Notes: generated by a model not told the origin, from the letters alone. 64,000 bases of DNA from Alphaproteobacteria bacterium (GCA_025934695.1 JAICWS010000001.1:277301-341300); one strand, 5' to 3'; shown: positions 31,635 to 42,884, counted from the stretch's first letter. Made by a program: numbers and translations.

Positions 31635-32082
31635 TGTGCTGGCCTGGTATGACTGTCTTCAGCTTCACAGCCTGAAAACCGCGTCGCAAAAATCCCCTAT
31701 GGGCAGCCCCAAATGAGGTGCCGTTAACCGGGGTGAAGAAGTTTGCCTTTCGTGCCTGTTCCAGTCAATGTCCCCATTTTGGATGAGAGATGGAGGGGCG
31801 CATTCATTGCCGCCGCTATCGCGGACTTCATTCTGGTATCTTCAACCGCATCTGCTTGCGCGAGAAGTTCATATGGAATAATGAATGAACACATATGAAA
31901 AGTTTCCGTAAAATTGGCGTGCCGGAGCGCTATTCCATTAGCTTGCTTCAGCGGATAGAGTGCAACCAGATCGCTGCGCCCTCACTTCGGCGCTAATCCG
32001 GCGTGGGCTCCGGTAGTTTGAATATAAATTCCGGGCCAACGGTGCTAGGTTGAGCGTCTGTCATAGACAACGACGCGCACAC

Positions 32083-33237
32083 ATGGCCAGGCCGGACTCC
32101 CCCTCCTACACGCTTCTGCAACTCGTAAAATACATGCTTCGCCTCGGCACCATTGGCTTCGGCGGGCCTGTCGCTCTCGTGAGCTATATGCATCGCGATC
32201 TGGTTGAGCAGCGCAAATGGATATCGGATGAAGATTACAAGGAAGGTCTGGCGCTCGCGCAGTTGGCGCCGGGACCGCTGGCGGCGCAATTGGCGATTTA
32301 CCTCGGGTACGTCCATTACCGGATCCTTGGCGCAACCCTTGCCGGAATTGCATTTGTCATTCCTTCTTTCCTGATGGTCGTCGCCCTCGGCTGGGCTTAT
32401 CTCCGGTACAACGGCCTTGAATGGATGCAGTCGGTCTTTTATGGCGTCGGCGCGGCTGTCATTGGCATTATCGTCATGAGCGCGAAAAAGCTGACCCAGA
32501 AGACCATCGGCAAGGACAAGTTGCTATGGGCGATTTTCCTGCTGCTTGCGGCGGTCACGATTATCACCCAAAGCGAAGTCGCCATGCTGTTCATCGCGGC
32601 GGGCATCGTCGTTTGGCTCTATCGTTGTCCTCCGAAGGCGCTTAGGCGCGGCAGAATGCTTTCACTTGCAGCCACCATTCCACTGGCCGCTGCTCCGCAG
32701 AACGGCGTCCTTTGGCAAATGGCCCTCTTCTTCGCCAAGGCCGGAGCCTTCGTCTTCGGCAGCGGGCTCGCCATCGTGCCGTTCCTCTATGGCGGCGTTG
32801 TGCACGAGCATCAATGGCTGACGGAACGCCAGTTCGTCGATGCGGTTGCGGTCGCCATGATCACGCCTGGGCCCGTCGTCATTACGGTTGGTTTTATCGG
32901 CTATCTGATAGCGGGGTTCAACGGCGCAGGCGTGGCGGCGCTCGCCACGTTCCTGCCGTGCTATTTGTTCACTGTTATTCCCGCGCCTTACATGAAAAAA
33001 TACGGCAAGGCGCCCGCGATCATTGCCTTCGTTGACGGCGTAACCGCCGCCGCCGTTGGCGCCATCGCAGGGTCTGTCATTGTTATCGCGCAGCGAGCCA
33101 TCGTGGACATCCCTACCGCCGCAATTGCAGTTGCCACCACCGCGCTGTTGTGGAAATTCAGGAAATTACAGGAGCCGCTCATTGTGGCTGGAGCAGCGGT
33201 TATCGGCTTGGTCATTTATCCCTTTGTTCACCCCTGA
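32083..33237 (+). CDS. chrA: Chromate transporter, two-CHR-domain type
   Basis: TIGFGGPVALVSYMHRDLVEQRKWISDEDYKEGLALAQLAPGPLAAQLAIYLG; second GAFVFGSGLAIVPFLYGGVV half. Confidence 0.92.
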   Translation: MARPDSPSYTLLQLVKYMLRLGTIGFGGPVALVSYMHRDLVEQRKWISDEDYKEGLALAQLAPGPLAAQLAIYLGYVHYRILGATLAGIAFVIPSFLMVVALGWAYLRYNGLEWMQSVFYGVGAAVIGIIVMSAKKLTQKTIGKDKLLWAIFLLLAAVTIITQSEVAMLFIAAGIVVWLYRCPPKALRRGRMLSLAATIPLAAAPQNGVLWQMALFFAKAGAFVFGSGLAIVPFLYGGVVHEHQWLTERQFVDAVAVAMITPGPVVITVGFIGYLIAGFNGAGVAALATFLPCYLFTVIPAPYMKKYGKAPAIIAFVDGVTAAAVGAIAGSVIVIAQRAIVDIPTAAIAVATTALLWKFRKLQEPLIVAGAAVIGLVIYPFVHP

Positions 33238-33314
33238 TCCTTCCAAGGGGAACGCCCGGCAAAGCTTCGAGTTTGAGAACTTTCAAAGGTTCGACAGTGG
33301 AACTCGGCACCATA

Positions 33315-34508
33315 ATGCAGCAAGCTGACGCACTGATATACCTCGAAAGGTATGTCGACGAGGGAGCCAGGACCTACAGCCGCTATTCGCAACGAAGCGA
33401 AACCGCGCCCCCATATAAACCCTCCGGAAAACAAAGCAGTTTTAAGCTTATCACCGCCCGCATCCCGGTTGACGAGGTCCAGATCGTCGAAGCCGCCCCG
33501 GATTCGCGTCTGCATAATTTTTATATTTGCGACGGAGAAGTGCGCTTTGCCCTCCATCCCGAAACCTGGGCCGCAGAAAATATTCCGTTTTTGGATGAAC
33601 TGCGAAAGTATCCGCAAGGCGATGCAATTGAAGTATCCCCAACAGCATCGACGCGAACGGTACTTGTCCGCAACGCGGATAATCTGCCCCCGCATTTTCT
33701 GAAACTTCATTATCCCAAATATGTTTCGCGATTCAATCGGCGGCTGCGGCGGCTTAATATATGTAACAGTGTTGCAGTTACGCGCGATATTAAAAATATC
33801 TGCCATCCGCGATTTGCCTATCTGCCTGACGAACTCGGTTTTATTTTTGGCACGGGAAGCGATGCATGGGGATTTTTAGTTCGTGAGGCGCATCCGCATC
33901 CGTTATTACAAGGTGGCTCCCTGATTCCCGGTTTTGCGCTTTACGGCGGTGACCTCATGCATCCCGACCATCCGCCGCTCCTCGTGCAAATGATCGCCCG
34001 TGCCAAAGCTGAGCCTGCTTCATTCGTTCTGGACAACATTATGATTCCGGTTGTCGAATGCTGGGCGAAGGCCGCAAGTGAGTGCGGATTCCTTCTTGAA
34101 TCTCACGGACAGAACACGTTGATCGAGGTGGGAGATGACCTGATGCCGCGCCGGATCGTACACCGCGACTTCGACGTATGGATCGACTTTGAGACGCGAA
34201 AACGGCTTGGGCTGGAAAATTCATTTCTCGGCGAGGGAATTTTTCAATACCCGGCAGAGCAATATTACAGTCTCGTCTATGACCACTTTGTGGGCCGGGA
34301 GTTCTTCGATTATCTCTTAAAAACGTTAAAGCGATTTTATAAAGTGGATGAGAGGAGTGTTCGAGAAAATGTGAAGCGGGCGTTTCTGAAGGCCTTTCCC
34401 GACAACGAGCGCCTGTTTCCTTCTGAAACCACTTACTATTTTTCAGATGCCGAAAATGGAAAGAAGTTTGCCTTTATCGACACGGGGAAGCCGCCTGAAT
34501 GGAGATAA
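33315..34508 (+). CDS. IucA/IucC-like (NIS synthetase-like) protein, short
   Basis: CGFLLESHGQNTLIEVGDDLMPRRIVHRDFD matches the IucA/IucC EAHGQN…RD core; FhuF-like C-terminus. Confidence 0.65.
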   Translation: MQQADALIYLERYVDEGARTYSRYSQRSETAPPYKPSGKQSSFKLITARIPVDEVQIVEAAPDSRLHNFYICDGEVRFALHPETWAAENIPFLDELRKYPQGDAIEVSPTASTRTVLVRNADNLPPHFLKLHYPKYVSRFNRRLRRLNICNSVAVTRDIKNICHPRFAYLPDELGFIFGTGSDAWGFLVREAHPHPLLQGGSLIPGFALYGGDLMHPDHPPLLVQMIARAKAEPASFVLDNIMIPVVECWAKAASECGFLLESHGQNTLIEVGDDLMPRRIVHRDFDVWIDFETRKRLGLENSFLGEGIFQYPAEQYYSLVYDHFVGREFFDYLLKTLKRFYKVDERSVRENVKRAFLKAFPDNERLFPSETTYYFSDAENGKKFAFIDTGKPPEWR

Positions 34509-34606
34509 TTCTTATACAAGTTTATGATAGGGACTTGCTCCTTTTGTTCATATTGACTTCATTGCCGGTACAAGCTGATTTCTGACTTCAGAAAAGGACC
34601 TAAAAA

Positions 34607-35488
34607 ATGAACAGCGTAATCCCGACTATAGCTCTTGCCGTGATGCTTTTCGGTTCTCCTGCCTTTGCGCAAACGCAGGATTGGTCAAAAGTAGATTTAG
34701 CCATTGGCAAAAAGGGCGCGGTACAAGCGGATGGCGTTTACAAAGTGAGCCTGCCGCGCACGGATCTCCACGTCACGCTGGATGGAGTTACCCTGAAACC
34801 CGGCTTCGCGCTGGGCTCCCATGTCGAGTTTATGCCGGCGGACGGCAGCGCCATGGTCATGGGCGATCTCGTCCTGACGGGAGAAGAAGTCGCGCCGGTC
34901 ATGAAAAAACTGCTCGATGGCGGCGTGGAAATTGCGGCCCTGCACAACCATCTGCTTCGCACGTCTCCGCCCATTTACTATATGCATGTCGGCGGCCATG
35001 GCGATGCGGAGAAGCTGGCCGCGGCCATCCACGCCGCGCTGCTCGAAAGTAAGACCCCCTTTGGAGATGCGCCCAAGGCTTCGCCCGCCAAGAGTGACGA
35101 CATCGATACCAAAGCGATTGATGACGCCCTCGGCCGCAGCGGCAAGATGAATAATGGCGTTTATCAGTTCAGCATTGCCCGCGCCGATACCGTCAAGGAA
35201 GGCGACATGACCATTCCTCCGGCAATGGGCATCGCCAATGGCATCAACTTTCAGGCCGCCGGCAATGGCAAAGTCGCAATAACGGGCGACTTCGCGCTAT
35301 TGGCGAATGAGGTGCCGCTCGTGATCGACGCATTAACAAAGAATGGAATCGAAGTTATGGCGCTCCACAGTCACATGCTGGACGATGACCCTCACCTATT
35401 CTTTCTTCACTTCTGGGCCAAAGGCGATGCAGCTTCGTTGGCAAAGGGGCTGAAAGCCGCTCTTGATCACATAAAAACCAAAAGCTAG
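34607..35488 (+). CDS. Exported DUF1259 (LppY/LpqO-like) protein with two repeated halves
   Basis: Signal peptide; VEIAALHNHLL and IEVMALHSHML in two homologous halves. Confidence 0.8.
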   Translation: MNSVIPTIALAVMLFGSPAFAQTQDWSKVDLAIGKKGAVQADGVYKVSLPRTDLHVTLDGVTLKPGFALGSHVEFMPADGSAMVMGDLVLTGEEVAPVMKKLLDGGVEIAALHNHLLRTSPPIYYMHVGGHGDAEKLAAAIHAALLESKTPFGDAPKASPAKSDDIDTKAIDDALGRSGKMNNGVYQFSIARADTVKEGDMTIPPAMGIANGINFQAAGNGKVAITGDFALLANEVPLVIDALTKNGIEVMALHSHMLDDDPHLFFLHFWAKGDAASLAKGLKAALDHIKTKS

Positions 35489-35489
35489 A

Positions 35490-35520
35490 CTGCCTTAACT
35501 TCGACAAGGCAGCAACTTTT
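35490..35520 (+). terminator. Possible intra-operon terminator/attenuator
   Basis: CTGCCTT-AACTTCGAC-AAGGCAG then CAACTTTT. Confidence 0.4.
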
Positions 35521-35548
35521 AACGCGCCTGAGAAACACGGAAGGAAAT

Positions 35549-35713
35549 ATGCCTGACGTTCTCAAAAGCACTGACGCTGCCGGGCCTATAAAAAGAATAT
35601 GGAAGCACCGTATTTGGGGGCCCATTATTCTTGTCCTCATCCTGGCAGGCGGGCTGGGTCTGTTCCTCCACTTTATCTCCTGCTGTGATCTGCTCGGTGA
35701 AATTTCAGAATGA
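35549..35713 (+). CDS. 54-aa single-pass membrane peptide (not in ORF track)
   Basis: MPDVLKSTDAAGPIKRIWKHRIWGPIILVLILAGGLGLFLHFISCCDLLGEISE; ATGA overlap with the next gene. Confidence 0.6.
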   Translation: MPDVLKSTDAAGPIKRIWKHRIWGPIILVLILAGGLGLFLHFISCCDLLGEISE

Positions 35714-36744
35714 GACTTAATAATGGAGTAGTTCGGCACGCCATCGGCGGCCTGTTTCTTATCATCAGTTTCAGCCTCGTTACACGTCAGGCACAGTCAC
35801 AGCCTGCGGCAGACGTTGATGTGCCATTGGTGTTGGAAAAAACTATTCCGCTCGCAGATGTATCAGGCCGCATCGATCATATGGCGCTTGATGTGCGCCG
35901 GAAGCGGCTGATCGTCGCTGAGCTGGGAAACAACTCCGTCGATGTTCTCGATATTGGAGCAGGCAAGGCGGAATTCCGCCTGACGGGACTGAATGAGCCG
36001 CAGGGCGTGGCTTACATTGCCAGCAAAGACACCATTCTTGTGTCGAATGGCGGCAGCGGAGATGCGCGCGTTTTTAAAGCAGAAGATGGCTCTCCCGTTG
36101 CGTCGATAATGCTGGGAGATGACGCTGACAATGTCCGTCTGGCGCCCGAAACCGATGCGGTCTTCATCGGCTATGGGAGCGGCGGTCTAGCTGCGCTCGA
36201 TACGGGCAAGTTGGCGAAGATCAAAGATATTCAATTGCCTGCACATCCCGAGGCGTTTGAAATCTCCCGCGATAGGCAAGTAGTTTTTGTCAATGTACCC
36301 GAGGCGGGTCAGATCGAAGTAGTTGATTTAAAGACCAATAAAATCAGGACGAGTTGGAAGACGGGCGAGCTGCGCTCCAACTTCCCGATGGCCCTCAACG
36401 CGAAGGGGACAACGCTGGCCGTCTCCTTTCGCCAGCCGCCACGGCTGCAGCTACTGGACGCAATGACAGGCCATAGCAAGCAGGTGCTGGGGACCTGTGA
36501 AGATGCCGACGACGTTTTCTTTGACGAGGGACGCGAAAGAATCTACGTCAGTTGCGGACGGGGCTCTGTCGACGTGTTTCAGAGAAAAGACGGTGATTAT
36601 CAATCCATTGCTCGGATTGCGACGGCGAGCGGTGCCAGAACATCATTATTCGTTCCGGAGTTAGATCGTCTTTTCGTCGCCGCCCCGGGCAGGCTTCTTA
36701 CCGGTGCGCGAATTCTGGTTTACAAAGCTGCACCCGGCAGATAA
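35710..36744 (+). CDS. Exported YncE-like beta-propeller protein
   Basis: Signal peptide; HMALDVRRKRLIVAELGNNSVDVLDIGAGK and similar blades. Confidence 0.8.
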   Translation: MRLNNGVVRHAIGGLFLIISFSLVTRQAQSQPAADVDVPLVLEKTIPLADVSGRIDHMALDVRRKRLIVAELGNNSVDVLDIGAGKAEFRLTGLNEPQGVAYIASKDTILVSNGGSGDARVFKAEDGSPVASIMLGDDADNVRLAPETDAVFIGYGSGGLAALDTGKLAKIKDIQLPAHPEAFEISRDRQVVFVNVPEAGQIEVVDLKTNKIRTSWKTGELRSNFPMALNAKGTTLAVSFRQPPRLQLLDAMTGHSKQVLGTCEDADDVFFDEGRERIYVSCGRGSVDVFQRKDGDYQSIARIATASGARTSLFVPELDRLFVAAPGRLLTGARILVYKAAPGR

Positions 36745-36769
36745 GGCTTTATGTTAGGAGGAGAATATT

Positions 36770-37198
36770 ATGAAGTGGATTACACGCGAACGTCCGAAGA
36801 TCGACCGCATTGCCTGCCCGTGGCTCGTGCAGAAGTTTGTCGATCCGCAGGCGGAATTCCTTTATGTGCCGAAAGAGGACGTCGTGAAGGTCGCGAAAGA
36901 ACAAAACGCCATTCCCTACGACGTTCCAGGCGTCGAGCTGACGCATGACGGGCCGCTTTGCAGTTTCGACGCGATTATCAAGAAATACAAAATCGCCGAT
37001 CCCGCCGTTCTCAGGCTGGCGGACATCGTGCGGGCGGCGGACACCGATACGCTCGACAGTTCACCGCAGGCTCCCGGGCTGCTGGCGATATCGAAAGGAC
37101 TCTCCGCAAATATCGCCAACGACCATGAAATGCTGAAGGTGGGAATGGTCATTTATGAAGCGCTCTATACCTGGTGCAAAAGCCAGAAAAATAGCTGA
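36770..37198 (+). CDS. chrB: ChrB-domain chromate resistance protein
   Basis: RIACPWLVQKFVDPQAEFLYVPKEDV … CSFDAIIKKYKI … ADIVRAADTD. Confidence 0.88.
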   Translation: MKWITRERPKIDRIACPWLVQKFVDPQAEFLYVPKEDVVKVAKEQNAIPYDVPGVELTHDGPLCSFDAIIKKYKIADPAVLRLADIVRAADTDTLDSSPQAPGLLAISKGLSANIANDHEMLKVGMVIYEALYTWCKSQKNS

Positions 37199-37418
37199 GT
37201 TTCCGGGGCTCGAAATATCATCGTCCTGCTTTTCGCAATTACGATTGCGCTGACCGGCGAACGGCAATGGCCTTTCCCGATTCTTGTGGACGCAAACATG
37301 ATCAAATACCAGAAAAACTATTATATAACAGGGATATAAACAATTTATTTTGCATATTAATTATATTTCTAATAGTTTACTTGTACGCTGAGCATCTACA
37401 TCAGAGGGATTTCCGCTT

Positions 37419-37486
37419 GTTTCTTCCCTGATGGTACAGCCCAGCTGAAACGGCATCGAATTGTTTTCAAGTTCCTGGCTGTTTGT
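37419..37486 (+). promoter_or_regulatory. Conserved upstream element, copy A
   Basis: GTTTCTTCCCTGATGGTACAGCCCAGCTGAAACGGC…TGGCTGTTT; aligns with copies B and C. Confidence 0.65.
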
Positions 37487-37543
37487 AAGCGGACCCCCCA
37501 ACAGACCGGCCCGAGGAACAACCTTAAACAAGGAGCCAAAGCC

Positions 37544-38068
37544 ATGACTTCGCGCAACACCGACCAAACGCTCGCCAAACCCGCCATTTTCATTACCACC
37601 GATTTTAACGAGCAGGCCGGCGCGGCCTACCCGCTCGACCGGACTTCGATCCGCGATTCCATTCATGAAACCGCCCTCTGGGCGATGAAGAACGGACATC
37701 GCATCATTGTGCGCGATGTTCCTGCGGTCAGCGGCATGCTCAGCTACATCTTCAAGGACGCGGCCGGCAGCACTGAAGACCTGTCGGTCGAGCCGGAGAG
37801 TGCCTCCGTGGCCGAGATCGTCGCCAAGCATCATCCGCGCGTGGCGGTACTGGCCGGCGGCTTCGCCCCGACCGCCGCCGACTTCGACGCACTTCAGAAG
37901 GAAGGCAACATCACGCTTATCCCCTTGCCCGAAACCGGCGGAGCGAGCCGCGCGATGTTCGAGCAGCACAAGGACACGTTGAAGCTCCCCGCCCCTGCCG
38001 TCGCGGCGCTGGAACAACGGACGTGGGGCGGACTGCGCCAGTCGCTGGAGAGCTGCAAGGGACCCTGA
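37544..38068 (+). CDS. Unknown Rossmann-like (SLOG-like?) protein
   Basis: Alternating strand/helix pattern with HPRVAVLAGGFAPTAADFDALQKEGNITLIPLPETGGASRAMF. Confidence 0.65.
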   Translation: MTSRNTDQTLAKPAIFITTDFNEQAGAAYPLDRTSIRDSIHETALWAMKNGHRIIVRDVPAVSGMLSYIFKDAAGSTEDLSVEPESASVAEIVAKHHPRVAVLAGGFAPTAADFDALQKEGNITLIPLPETGGASRAMFEQHKDTLKLPAPAVAALEQRTWGGLRQSLESCKGP

Positions 38069-38273
38069 TGCAGCGGACAAAAGAATTTGGGCCATAGCGC
38101 GCAATCTTGAAACTATCGGCCACCTTCGCTCGATAGCGCTCGAACAATCATCGTCCGCACCGACTTGGGGCAAGAGCGTTTACAGAAATGCTCTGCCATG
38201 ATGCACAGGCGTCTCTCTTCTGACCATCGCCGCAACCTTGCCGCCGCACGGCGAAAGAAAGCTGTTTCGATAG

Positions 38274-38299
38274 GGAACTGGCCTCGAAAACGAGTCGTT
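38274..38299 (+). promoter_or_regulatory. Candidate EcfG-type promoter GGAAC-N17-CGTT
   Basis: Exact match to the alphaproteobacterial EcfG -35/-10 consensus spacing, 70 bp upstream of 38369. Confidence 0.55.
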
Positions 38300-38368
38300 T
38301 TCTTGGGCTTAGAAAGACTTGGGCAGTGTTCGAAATATCTTCTGTAATTACATTGCGGGAACCATTAA

Positions 38369-39151
38369 ATGATAAAACTCTCAAACAAATACGTCGGGCC
38401 GGCATTTCTTGCAGCTTTTATAATCGTTCAATTTGCCGTCATCACGATCTCCGGGGCCGCCCATGCGGAGGATGCGGCATATCTTAATAGGTATTTCAAA
38501 GTAGAAGGCGACGATGCCATCGCGAATGCGAATGCCGGTGTATTAAGTTTCAGCGCCACCCGCTCGCGGTTTCAATCAGGTCACGGGCATGGCTGGCGCA
38601 ACGAGGCGAAAATACGCGAGCAGCTGCGTTTGCCCGCTGCCGAGACGCGGGAGATTTTTTCCACAACCGTGACGCCGCATCTTCCACCTTGGGCCAAAAC
38701 AATCGTGGCCCAGTATCATTTTGAAGGTTTGAACACCGCGGCGAAAGTGTTTGTCCAGGATACGAAAGAAAGCGGCGTGATGGACGGCGTTGCTGGAAAC
38801 GGCGTATTCGACATTTTGGCGCGTATCAAAGGTCCGGATGGAAAGGAAGTCACGACGCCGCTCGGCACCGTACGATCAGGCGAGTCTTTCGATCTTGACG
38901 TCAGTTTCAACGCCGGCGTTGTGAACGTGGCCGCGTCGACAAGGAAATGGGGCCGGAAGCAAACAGGCAATGTATCTCTCCCGGATACGTCGAGCATCGT
39001 CTATCTAAAGTTTGGGGATTATCTGCAGGCTTTAAATGCCGCCGGCGAGCACACGACTAACGAGAACGAATGGAAAGAATACTATGCGCAGCATCACATC
39101 GATAAGACCGAAGTGGATTTTTCGAATGTGCGGTTTGCGCGGCGGTCATAA
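38369..39151 (+). CDS. Exported PL7/alginate_lyase2-like jelly-roll protein candidate
   Basis: Signal peptide; RNEAKIREQL, TIVAQYHFE, IVYLKFGDYLQ correspond to PL7 R-x-E-x-x-R, Q-I-H and Y-x-K-x-G-x-Y-x-Q motifs. Confidence 0.6.
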   Translation: MIKLSNKYVGPAFLAAFIIVQFAVITISGAAHAEDAAYLNRYFKVEGDDAIANANAGVLSFSATRSRFQSGHGHGWRNEAKIREQLRLPAAETREIFSTTVTPHLPPWAKTIVAQYHFEGLNTAAKVFVQDTKESGVMDGVAGNGVFDILARIKGPDGKEVTTPLGTVRSGESFDLDVSFNAGVVNVAASTRKWGRKQTGNVSLPDTSSIVYLKFGDYLQALNAAGEHTTNENEWKEYYAQHHIDKTEVDFSNVRFARRS

Positions 39152-39226
39152 GCGCTTAGCGAACCAGCGGCCGAAAAGATAGCTACGGGCAATTAGTATA
39201 GCGTTCCTGGAATTCCGGAATCACGT

Positions 39227-39505
39227 TTAATCCGACATGGGTCTGTATTGAGCCACGAAGCTGTGCGGTGTGCGCAAGGATTTCGGCGCGTAGACCGCGA
39301 CGCCCTGGATCTTTGTGCCATCCTTGCGGCTGACGCCGGTAAATGCCGCGCGGTAATGGGGACGCGCGAGCCAGGGCGACGTTACGTCCGGCGGCGCGGT
39401 CTTGCCGCCTTTGTCGCGCGCCAGGGGGCCGAGTTCGACATTTTCAAGAAAGCCTTCCAGCTCTTTTTTCAACGACTTTTCCGCAAAATAACTTCTCAAA
39501 GACAT
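39227..39505 (-). CDS. Small protein of unknown function (92 aa)
   Basis: Good RBS (GAAGGAAAC) and conserved upstream element copy C. Confidence 0.55.
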   Translation of the reverse strand: MSLRSYFAEKSLKKELEGFLENVELGPLARDKGGKTAPPDVTSPWLARPHYRAAFTGVSRKDGTKIQGVAVYAPKSLRTPHSFVAQYRPMSD

Positions 39506-39601
39506 CGCTTGTTTCCTTCAGATTTGAACAACAGTTGCAGTTCGTCAGGAATCTGAAGGCGTTTTCGGATATTTCGCGCCGGAGGAAAAGCTTTCCCACC
39601 A

Positions 39602-39673
39602 CAAAACAGCCATGACGACGGCGTCAGAATTCCTTGGCTGTTTTACCTGTGCTGAAACCGGCGTGCGGGAAAC
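39602..39673 (-). promoter_or_regulatory. Conserved upstream element, copy C
   Basis: Minus strand GTTTCCCGCACGCCGGTTTCAGCACAGGTAAAACAGCCAAGGAATT…TGGCTGTTTT; 10-bp perfect stem AAAACAGCCA/TGGCTGTTTT. Confidence 0.7.
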
Positions 39674-39820
39674 GCTAAACACGCAAGCCGTGGTGGCGAG
39701 GCTTTGGATGTTATAGCAGATTAGGTTGCGTTATGTCAAGTCCATCAACGGCAAGGGCGCCCCCGCTCGCGAAGGAACTAAAGGCTGCCCTCGGTCAAAT
39801 AAACATCCAAAACGAGGTCG

Positions 39821-40927
39821 CTAGCTGGAAGCAGAAACTCTTTGGCCGCCCTGCTCACGTTTATTTGAGATTAGAGCGACGACCTGCTTCGCCAATGGTT
39901 CCGCTGCTGAATCGGGAAAGGGTGAAACGCTGCTGACATTTATCTCGCACAGCACGTAGGTGTCCTGCCCTGCGGCATCTTTGGGGCCGAACATAAAGTC
40001 GCAGTCCCATAGCATAGGAAGATCAGCCGTTTCAATTCCGAGAACTTTCTGCGCGGCTGGCACCCACTCGTTTTCGAGCATGTGCTTGAGATTTTGAAAC
40101 TCAGGCATTGTCGGAGGATGGTAGTGACGCTTTGTTGGCTGCGGCGCGGCTTCGGGCGAAGCGCCCGCAGGAGCGGGATGGAGCGCAACAATTTCCTGCC
40201 GTCCAAACCCTTCGACGCGGCCTTGAACCAAATAGCAGCGAACCATACCTTCGGGAAGGCGATCCTGATACGCTTGGTCGACCATGCGCCCCTGACCTCC
40301 GAGCGCGGCGAAGTAAGGAGCGCATCTCTCGTAAAATTCATCGAGCGTAATAACCTCCTCGGAACAGCCGGACTTGGCATGGCGTGCGCGCACAAGGGAA
40401 TTTCCCGTCAAGGGGCCCGAACCCGACTCGCGTTCGATGCGCCAAATGCCGTCGCCGCTATGTCCGCGATATTGTTTCAGCACACGCGCTTCTCCCCGAG
40501 TAAGTCGGTTAGGCAATTCGCGCTTCATTTTTTCGAGACTCGTATAGAGATGTATATCGCAGCCCCAGCCTATATCCTTGGTGCGAACCAATACCTCCTT
40601 GGTGCCGAGTTTAAGGATGATATCCGGGTGCGTGCTGACGAAAACGCCGCCCGCCGCCACCTCGCGCAACATTTTATCTAGCTTCGTACGGTCGCTTCCC
40701 CCTTCGATCGGATTTACCCATACGAGTACAGCGTCTACTTGAGAAATCTGCTGCTTCACCTCATCGCAAAAGTCGTCGTGGTAAATGGCGGGCTCGGCCC
40801 GCACACCCAAAGCCTGAAATGCGTCAAATACTTTTTGAAGACGGGCATTGGTCGATGCGATTTGTCTTCTGGCTTCTCGGTCACCCGGATAGAGAATAGC
40901 GACACGCCAAGAATTTGCTTGGGTCAT
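39821..40927 (-). CDS. Cj0069-like / ATP-grasp-like protein
   Basis: MTQANSWRVAILYPGDREAR…; VLKQYRGHSGDGIW and CDFMFGPKDAAGQDTYVLCEINVSSVSPFPDSA resemble ATP-grasp nucleotide/metal sites. Confidence 0.6.
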   Translation of the reverse strand: MTQANSWRVAILYPGDREARRQIASTNARLQKVFDAFQALGVRAEPAIYHDDFCDEVKQQISQVDAVLVWVNPIEGGSDRTKLDKMLREVAAGGVFVSTHPDIILKLGTKEVLVRTKDIGWGCDIHLYTSLEKMKRELPNRLTRGEARVLKQYRGHSGDGIWRIERESGSGPLTGNSLVRARHAKSGCSEEVITLDEFYERCAPYFAALGGQGRMVDQAYQDRLPEGMVRCYLVQGRVEGFGRQEIVALHPAPAGASPEAAPQPTKRHYHPPTMPEFQNLKHMLENEWVPAAQKVLGIETADLPMLWDCDFMFGPKDAAGQDTYVLCEINVSSVSPFPDSAAEPLAKQVVALISNKREQGGQRVSASS

Positions 40928-41016
40928 AAGACCTTCTCCATTGGAGGGCATTTTTACTGAGTGCAGAACCCGTTTAACGAAAGGATTTTTGAACAATTTT
41001 TTTAGCACAGTCCAAA

Positions 41017-41238
41017 TTATTTCTTCATCCGCTTCAAAGCTGACAATCCACGATGAATTTTGCTCGAACTAAGAGATTCAATATCTGCCGGCAAAGATGA
41101 AAGAATGAGACTCGCGAAATGTCGATGTTCCCGCGCACCATATCTTCCAATAGCAGATATTTTCAACGTCTTTTCAGGCAAAGATTCTATTTGACATAAT
41201 ACTATAGATCCGCTATGATTATATCCAAGCTCACGCAT
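41017..41238 (-). CDS. Short hypothetical protein (73 aa)
   Basis: Uncontested ORF in a noncoding gap; no recognised motif. Confidence 0.3.
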   Translation of the reverse strand: MRELGYNHSGSIVLCQIESLPEKTLKISAIGRYGAREHRHFASLILSSLPADIESLSSSKIHRGLSALKRMKK

Positions 41239-41258
41239 CCACGGCAGAACGGTTTAAC

Positions 41259-41322
41259 GTTTCTCGTCTGCCGGTACAGCACAGCTAAAACAGCCAGGAA
41301 CTAGGTGTTCAGGGCTGTTTAT
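41259..41322 (+). promoter_or_regulatory. Conserved upstream element, copy B
   Basis: GTTTCTCGTCTGCCGGTACAGCACAGCTAAAACAGCCAGGAACT…GGGCTGTTTAT; stem AAACAGCC/GGCTGTTT. Confidence 0.7.
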
Positions 41323-41391
41323 ATGCTGATCCTCCCCGATCACAGCATGGCCAGTCTTGTTCAACTGCAAAAGTTGATAAGGAGAAGAGCT

Positions 41392-41571
41392 ATGAGTTTA
41401 AGAACAGCCTTGAACAAAGCAGTTAAGATCACCTCCTTGGAAGGCGCGCCCTCGCATATCAAAGGCGGCTTTCCGGGGGTCACCCCGCCCGGCAGCTATA
41501 ATGAAATCACCTCTCTCGCCGCGGCCCCCAAGTCTGTCGGCAAGCCTGTGAATCTCTCGGCAAAACGATAA
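41392..41571 (+). CDS. Miniature LRR-like protein (59 aa)
   Basis: RBS AAGGAGAAGAGC; ITSLEGAPSHIKGGF and NEITSLAAAPKSVG match units of the downstream protein. Confidence 0.55.
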   Translation: MSLRTALNKAVKITSLEGAPSHIKGGFPGVTPPGSYNEITSLAAAPKSVGKPVNLSAKR

Positions 41572-41718: not shown

Positions 41719-42498
41719 ATGCCGAAAGATTTTGATATTGGGAAACAATTCAATCGCGCCATGGGCAATGCTGTCGAAGCGGAGAAAGCACTTGCAGAAT
41801 GGGGTGTTCCCTTTCGCAGACAACCAAATGGCTCGCTTATAGTTGACGGAGATCTCGATATCTCCAGCAAGGGGCTGACCTCCCTGCCAGACCTTACGTC
41901 AGTCATCATCCAGGGAATGTTTCTCTGCAATTATAACAAGCTCACCTCGCTGCGTGGCGCGCCGCAAAACGTCGGGTCCTTCAGTTGCGAGGGCAACCAA
42001 CTCACAACTTTGGTAGGGGCACCGCAAAACGTCGGCGGGTCCTTCAACTGTTCCCACAACCAGCTCACGTCGCTAATTGGAGTGCCGCAGGTGATCGTCG
42101 AAAACTTCTACTGCACCTTCAATTTGTTGACTTCGCTGGAAGATGGCCCGTTGGCCGTGGGTCGCGATTTTCGCTGTGACTATAACCAGCTGACTTCCCT
42201 GAAGGGTGCTCCATCGTCATTTGTCGCGGGAGCTGTCACCTGCACGAATAATCCGCTGACATCTCTTGAGCATGCACCGCCGAAATTCCAGGTCCTGCAA
42301 AGCGACTTCGGCACCTTCAATTCATGGGACGACATACCCGAAAGACTGCGCACGTCCCCTGAAACGAAGGAACTGATAGAGCAGAGCCGTCGCGCAGCCG
42401 AAGAACATGCTATCGCGGAACGGGAAAGGTCAATCCATGATGCCACTGTTCTTGGCAGGCCAATCGGGGTTCAACGACCGCTTTCCTTCAAGGCATAA
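41719..42498 (+). CDS. LRR-like solenoid protein with LTSLxGAPxxVGxxFxCxxN repeats
   Basis: About 6-7 units of 20-22 aa. Confidence 0.8.
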   Translation: MPKDFDIGKQFNRAMGNAVEAEKALAEWGVPFRRQPNGSLIVDGDLDISSKGLTSLPDLTSVIIQGMFLCNYNKLTSLRGAPQNVGSFSCEGNQLTTLVGAPQNVGGSFNCSHNQLTSLIGVPQVIVENFYCTFNLLTSLEDGPLAVGRDFRCDYNQLTSLKGAPSSFVAGAVTCTNNPLTSLEHAPPKFQVLQSDFGTFNSWDDIPERLRTSPETKELIEQSRRAAEEHAIAERERSIHDATVLGRPIGVQRPLSFKA

Positions 42499-42797: not shown

Positions 42798-42884
42798 TGG
42801 TGCCCCCGGTCGGGGTCGAACCGACACATCCTTGCGGATACAAGATTTTGAGTCTAGCGCGTCTGCCAATTCCGCCACAGGGGC
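42798..42884 (-). tRNA. tRNA-Leu (anticodon CAA), CCA encoded
   Basis: Minus strand GCCCCTGTGGCGGAATTGGCAGACGCGCTAGACTCAAAATCTTG…GTCGGTTCGACCCCGACCGGGGGCACCA; acceptor and T stems pair. Confidence 0.93.

Follow-up and report, generated by a model that had tools for sequence, protein, structure and literature searches.

A probable new family of cis-regulatory leader RNA with at least 55 copies in one alphaproteobacterial genome

The window, a 64,000-nucleotide stretch of the genome of an Alphaproteobacteria bacterium (GCA_025934695.1; 4.13 Mb in 7 contigs), covers positions 277301-341300 of contig 3 and contains three copies of an element, designated A, B, and C, each followed by a short gene. 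Three helices (P0, P1, and P2) were recognized in the element, and a promoter lies upstream of it. The features of the region, numbered from the first base of the window, are as follows.

37350-37375, plus strand: promoter-like site of copy A, from the sequence and the family alignment, weaker than the family consensus (-35 TTGCAT 37350-37355, -10 TAATAG 37370-37375)
37384-37484, plus strand: whole structured leader of copy A (family-built model R3, E = 1.3e-15)
37387-37393 and 37439-37445, plus strand: copy A P0, GCTGAGC/GCCCAGC
37399-37404 and 37428-37433, plus strand: copy A P1, CATCAG/CTGATG, loop TTT..GTTTC
37448-37454 and 37478-37484, plus strand: copy A P2, AAACGGC/GCTGTTT
37544-38068, plus strand: gene after copy A, 174 aa, with weak similarity, below the cut-offs, to SLOG-type and Thoeris ThcA-like nucleotide-binding folds
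39710-39739, minus strand: promoter of copy C (-35 TTGACA 39739-39734, -10 TATAAC 39715-39710)
39604-39705, minus strand: whole structured leader of copy C (R3, E = 3.3e-9)
39690-39682 and 39667-39659, minus strand: copy C P1, CGGCTTGCG/CGCACGCCG
39643-39636 and 39611-39604, minus strand: copy C P2, AAACAGCC/GGCTGTTT
39227-39505, minus strand: gene after copy C, 92 aa, no family match
41191-41219, plus strand: promoter of copy B (-35 TTGACA 41191-41196, -10 TATGAT 41214-41219)
41226-41320, plus strand: whole structured leader of copy B (R3, E = 4.9e-16)
41228-41230 and 41284-41286, plus strand: copy B P0, AGC/GCT
41242-41251 and 41265-41273, plus strand: copy B P1, CGGCAG-A-ACG/CGT-CTGCCG
41288-41295 and 41313-41320, plus strand: copy B P2, AAACAGCC/GGCTGTTT
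41392-41571, plus strand: gene after copy B, 59 aa, LRR-family fragment, with an alternative in-frame 82-aa version from 41323, two bases past P2
41722-42498, plus strand: LRR protein gene, second after copy B

Adjoining copy A is a row of chromate transporter-like, DUF1259, beta-propeller, and ChrB C-terminal domain genes (32050-37198), and an Alginate lyase 2-like secreted protein is encoded between copies A and C (38369-39151). The gene at 39821-41008 (minus strand) encodes a Cj0069-family protein (DUF6815) whose closest relatives found were mostly from Burkholderiales, and it was possibly acquired horizontally. A tRNA gene (42801-42884, minus strand) lies shortly downstream of the LRR gene.

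Direct reading of the sequence placed copies A, B, and C where the initial annotation had reported them and confirmed the stem AAACAGCC/GGCTGTTT in all three as it was described there. The window contains the core CAGCNCAGNTNAAACNGC exactly three times, a count of at least three being reached in 1 of 100 shuffles. The element is real as annotated, but the R3 model set its true start about 35 nt further upstream, and the annotated stem proved to be P2, the last of three helices, P1 and P0 having been missed. The distance to the start codons, given earlier as about 60 to 100 bp, was corrected to 58, 70, and 96 nt from the end of P2. In the sense orientation, R3 found nothing convincing in the window beyond these copies. 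The earlier statement that the element occurs nowhere else is thus true of the window only, as at least 55 copies were found in the genome.

A pattern search of the host genome recovered the three window copies and several more of the same layout. A covariance model built from ten copies (R1) returned 79 matches with E values of 10 or less, the best of which were read by eye; after antisense echoes of the palindromic P2 had been discarded, 52 copies were retained. A second covariance model (R2) added three (C3:1047066, C3:1112916, and C5:195798), bringing the host total to at least 55 on six contigs. Eighteen copies lie within 134 kb (C3:979-1113 kb), on the same contig as the window but elsewhere. 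Genes of that region (L220-L226, contig 3, 975-1115 kb) include two-component systems, Sel1, ankyrin, FIST, and a Tle1-like phospholipase-domain protein. A phage origin was considered and rejected, as none of the 20 viral contigs that matched a loose DNA pattern held the RNA and the top Pfam hits of the 18-copy cluster include ordinary chromosomal families.

Covariance-model searching, as proposed in the initial annotation, found further copies before genes in relatives as well as in the host. The element was present in 12 of 147 genomes of the order, host included, with 3 to 15 matches in each of six other genomes of the genus, one and three matches in two other genera of the family, and one match in each of three genomes from other families. 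Among 395 genomes sampled across the class, the host alone scored under strict filters with few candidates scored per genome, and absence outside the order is accordingly a soft conclusion. The window element and eight diverse loci gave no match above the gathering cut-off to any of the 4,227 families of Rfam 15, with lax thresholds also applied, and a text search covering part of the literature found no description of the element. The family appears to be new, as do its number of copies and its regulon of orphan genes, while the kind itself is that of a cis-regulatory leader RNA.

The leader is about 95 to 110 nt long. P0 closes P1, whose loop contains UUU...GUUUC, and an AAAAC link then leads to P2. 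These two single-stranded motifs are near-invariant. The sequence of P1, by comparison, has changed fully between the window copies and yet remains paired (CATCAG/CTGATG in A, CGGCAG/CTGCCG in B, and CGGCTTGCG/CGCACGCCG in C), and P0 takes forms such as GCCGGGC/GCCCGGC, TGCAC/GTGCA, TGTGC/GCACA, and GAGAG/CTCTC. Inserts in the P1 loop and between P0 and P1 are sometimes hairpin-like (e.g., GCCCGGT...ACCGGGC at C3:1005828), and a few copies are without the P2 3' arm (e.g., C2:1049212).

RNAalifold found no structure in a plain MAFFT alignment of the 52 copies, probably because of their varying lengths; anchor-based swap tests and covariance-model alignments were therefore used instead. In the swap test, the strands of each helix were located in the 52 copies by sequence-only anchors, and each copy's own strands were compared with strands exchanged between copies over 20,000 permutations. 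Own strands paired far better, with z values of -11.6 for P1, -7.0 for P0, and -9.3 for P2, an equally good result being obtained in 0 of 20,000 permutations for each, while control segments gave z from -2.4 to +1.4. Covariance-model alignments of 61 distinct sequences (a 32-sequence set was also counted) contained two-sided changes in 25 of 29 pairs and 210 double-change cells versus 61 in shuffles; in such alignments 87.6% of cells were paired, versus 31 to 40% when slid. These pair counts come from alignments fitted to the model and so lean towards structure, whereas the swap test does not. The element hence has what is expected of a riboswitch in this respect, a conserved secondary structure supported by covariation.

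The initial annotation had offered either RNA structure or a palindromic binding site. The former is borne out by the covariation of three helices, and the latter is not needed, the promoter being separate and upstream. An operator whose inverted repeats bind a transcription factor as DNA would suit a palindromic P2 adjoining a conserved promoter, but it is scarcely credible for three separate helices with long variable loops and sequences that differ from copy to copy; the helices covary as RNA pairs, G-U included, and no palindrome sequence is conserved. Two further pairings were examined. The 3' strand of P2 has weak extra pairing with downstream sequence (z = -4.2). Pairing of GUUU in the P1 loop with AAAC as a pseudoknot gave no covariation signal in the swap test; it is possible, on the strength of one compensatory change (L064, GCUU/AAGC), that this pseudoknot competes with P2 and loosens its foot.

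Upstream of the element, at a constant distance, is a promoter, TTGACATAAT-N-TATAAT. Its common form, TTGACATAA-N-TATAAT, is sigma-70-like with a spacing of mostly 17 to 18, and every base of TTGACA is retained in 49 to 51 of the 52 copies. Since the promoter was part of no model, its presence speaks independently for the weaker hits, and its fixed distance means that the mRNA is expected to begin with the element. Together with the same-orientation downstream gene, the sequence thus places the element in a 5' untranslated region. The exact pattern TTGACATA-N16-20-TATA was found 38 times in the genome versus 2 for the reversed control. Leader copies account for 22 of these sites, while the other 16 (L158-L173) have no recognisable leader; promoter and leader are therefore separable. 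Leaderless sites of this kind, at least 16 in all, include some before LRR (L164), ankyrin (L171), and small membrane-protein genes; expression of such genes thus does not require the leader.

The downstream genes, whose starts were called by a simple script rather than a gene finder, are mostly short and mostly unrelated to one another. Most of 50 had no Pfam match; eight were LRR-related by BLAST, four were ankyrin, one was MORN-like, and several were small membrane proteins. The window genes, initially described as unrelated, do not all stand apart from the rest of the set, since the 59-aa ORF of copy B resembles LRR proteins behind other copies. The copies that were read precede a gene in the same orientation, and homologs in different species (L140/L059, 67% identity; L144/L065, 35%; L151/L123, 38%) and in different genera (L183/L067, 45%) have retained the leader.

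Several of these observations bear on whether the similarity merely reflects recent mobility or duplication of a spreading repeat with no regulatory role. The high copy number, the uneven spread among genomes, and the LRR gene family among the hosts would all be in keeping with such a repeat. However, among 1,275 pairs of copies, similarity was found in the element in 269, in the downstream flank in 24, and in the upstream flank in 2, the strongest downstream pairs being mostly LRR coding sequence. A mobile or dispersed repeat would be expected to have defined ends and to share sequence beyond the element; the flanks are in general not alike, and the larger mobile repeat that the initial annotation had named as a possible refutation is thus not seen. 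With base pairing retained as the sequence diverges, same-orientation genes behind the copies read, and leaders retained at homologous genes between genera, this explanation is very improbable. A structured RNA leader defining a regulon, as first suggested, is instead supported by the copies in host and relatives, the covariation, the promoter placement, and the absence of a larger shared repeat. The regulon is not, as had been suggested, a small one in this accessory block but is genome-wide.

A C-terminal tail, K..RPL.FRK, is common to LRR proteins encoded after the leader and to one non-LRR protein encoded there (L053, L074, L116, and window 41722-42498), with the variants SPPLSFRK, SRPISFRK, FRPLRFRK, and QRPLSFKA; it could be a sorting tag. 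The idea that the downstream genes encode effectors was rejected, since neither a VirB4-type T4SS gene nor a T6SS sheath (VipB) gene was found in the host genome.

The spacing between P2 and the start codon is bimodal, at 1 to 4 nt in about one-fifth of copies and mostly 47 to 97 nt otherwise. Of 12 copies whose start codon is no more than 18 nt from P2, 10 carry an SD-like motif in the 3' strand of this helix, versus 16 of 40 others; at C2:874, for example, the SD is within this strand (CGGAGGTTGTC ACG ATG). Two members, L177 and L179, which belong to a different family of the same order, likewise have the start a few bases past P2 and the ribosome-binding site in its 3' strand, before secreted-protein-like genes, which suggests that this arrangement may be ancestral. 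Predicted SD pairing was 0.74 versus 0.75 for the two architectures and 0.67 for other genes, and with no contrast SD accessibility was rejected as a discriminator; in the spacer copies, SD pairing was not clearly above background. Just past P2, the spacer copies are enriched in CU-rich anti-SD-like sequence (60 versus 35.6 ± 6.6 in shuffles). An ATG lies 7 to 14 nt past P2 in 14 of 41 spacer copies, one control window giving 10 of 41, which is only suggestive of a short upstream ORF starting there.

At least five U residues follow P2 in 6 of 52 copies, so the GC-rich hairpin and U-run of an intrinsic terminator are present in those six but are not a family feature. A transcription attenuator or antiterminator, either an intrinsic-terminator switch or an element acting on RNA polymerase, would explain why the element directly follows the promoter, the A-tract/U-tract foot of P2, and its weak extra pairing downstream. 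It is nonetheless improbable, as most copies have four U or fewer, and in most immediate-start copies ribosome-binding-site sequence replaces the U-run. The put elements of phage HK022 are antiterminators of the second kind, which bind RNA polymerase and suppress termination, and consist of a pair of neighboring hairpins with which the transcript begins. The leader resembles them in this placement of two adjacent hairpins but differs in that P0-P1 is one long interrupted hairpin, and no phage context was found.

Alternatively, the element may serve as a binding platform for a protein or small RNA acting in trans, or as a hairpin governing mRNA stability, coordinating expression post-transcriptionally without an internal sensor-output switch. 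The invariant loop motifs and A-rich link would suit contact with a protein or with Hfq and an sRNA, and in most copies P2, at 47 to 97 nt from the start codon, is not available to mask the ribosome-binding site directly. No partner was found, however, the sequences of P0 and P1 are as free to vary as in an aptamer scaffold, and the ribosome-binding site is overlapped by P2 in immediate-start copies and distant members; a platform is on balance unlikely, though it deserves consideration.

The reading we favor, and consider likely, is a new family of cis-regulatory structured leader RNA at the 5' end of the mRNA, in which P0-P1 would be the sensor domain and P2 the output, holding back expression of the next gene. 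Where the start directly follows, P2 would hide the ribosome-binding site. In the spacer copies, the candidate outputs are a short upstream ORF, a downstream anti-SD arm, or, in the few copies with a U-run, termination. As to what P0-P1 binds, our guess gives a small molecule about an even chance and a protein or sRNA somewhat less, with temperature an outside possibility. More tentatively, and with considerable doubt, the leader may represent a new class of RNA that senses a ligand and controls, in one genome, at least 55 orphan accessory genes, with LRR, ankyrin, MORN-like, and small membrane proteins in its gene set; in one bacterial order, it would thus work as a global switch for that set, responding to a second messenger or metabolite.

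Translation-controlling leaders that sequester the SD, such as SAM-II, SAM-V, and RNA thermometers, use the 3' strand of a helix as the ribosome-binding site. P2 is alike in this, but the leader has a separate two-part P0-P1 domain upstream, and its overlap with the ribosome-binding site is limited to about one-fifth of copies. The c-di-GMP-I (GEMM) riboswitches recur from several to many times within a genome, ahead of genes of mixed function that form one regulon. The leader shares this copy number and mixture of genes, but its sequence and architecture differ and it gave no Rfam hit. With orphan riboswitch candidates, classes known from comparative genomics (PMC7266159, PMC11109978), it shares the position in the 5' untranslated region, covarying helices, near-invariant loop nucleotides, and, in some copies, a ribosome-binding site inside the last helix. 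Unlike them, it is represented in one genome by 55 copies or more, and because the genes behind these are mostly unrelated and lack a known function, gene context does not suggest a ligand; within the genomes searched it is also limited to one order, and it matches nothing in Rfam.

The leader provides a handle on dozens of genes without an assigned function, as whatever switches it should show when these genes are brought into use by the organism. Its number of copies in each genome, and its two arrangements, with the start directly after P2 or 47 to 97 nt off, make a good natural series in which to test how one RNA domain adapts to many genes. One pair of copies is alike beyond the element itself: in copy B (41321-41391) and C2:495945 (L116), about 57 nt of the 5' untranslated region after P2 are 86% identical (...CATGGCCAG..TTGATAAGGAG), which is unusual.
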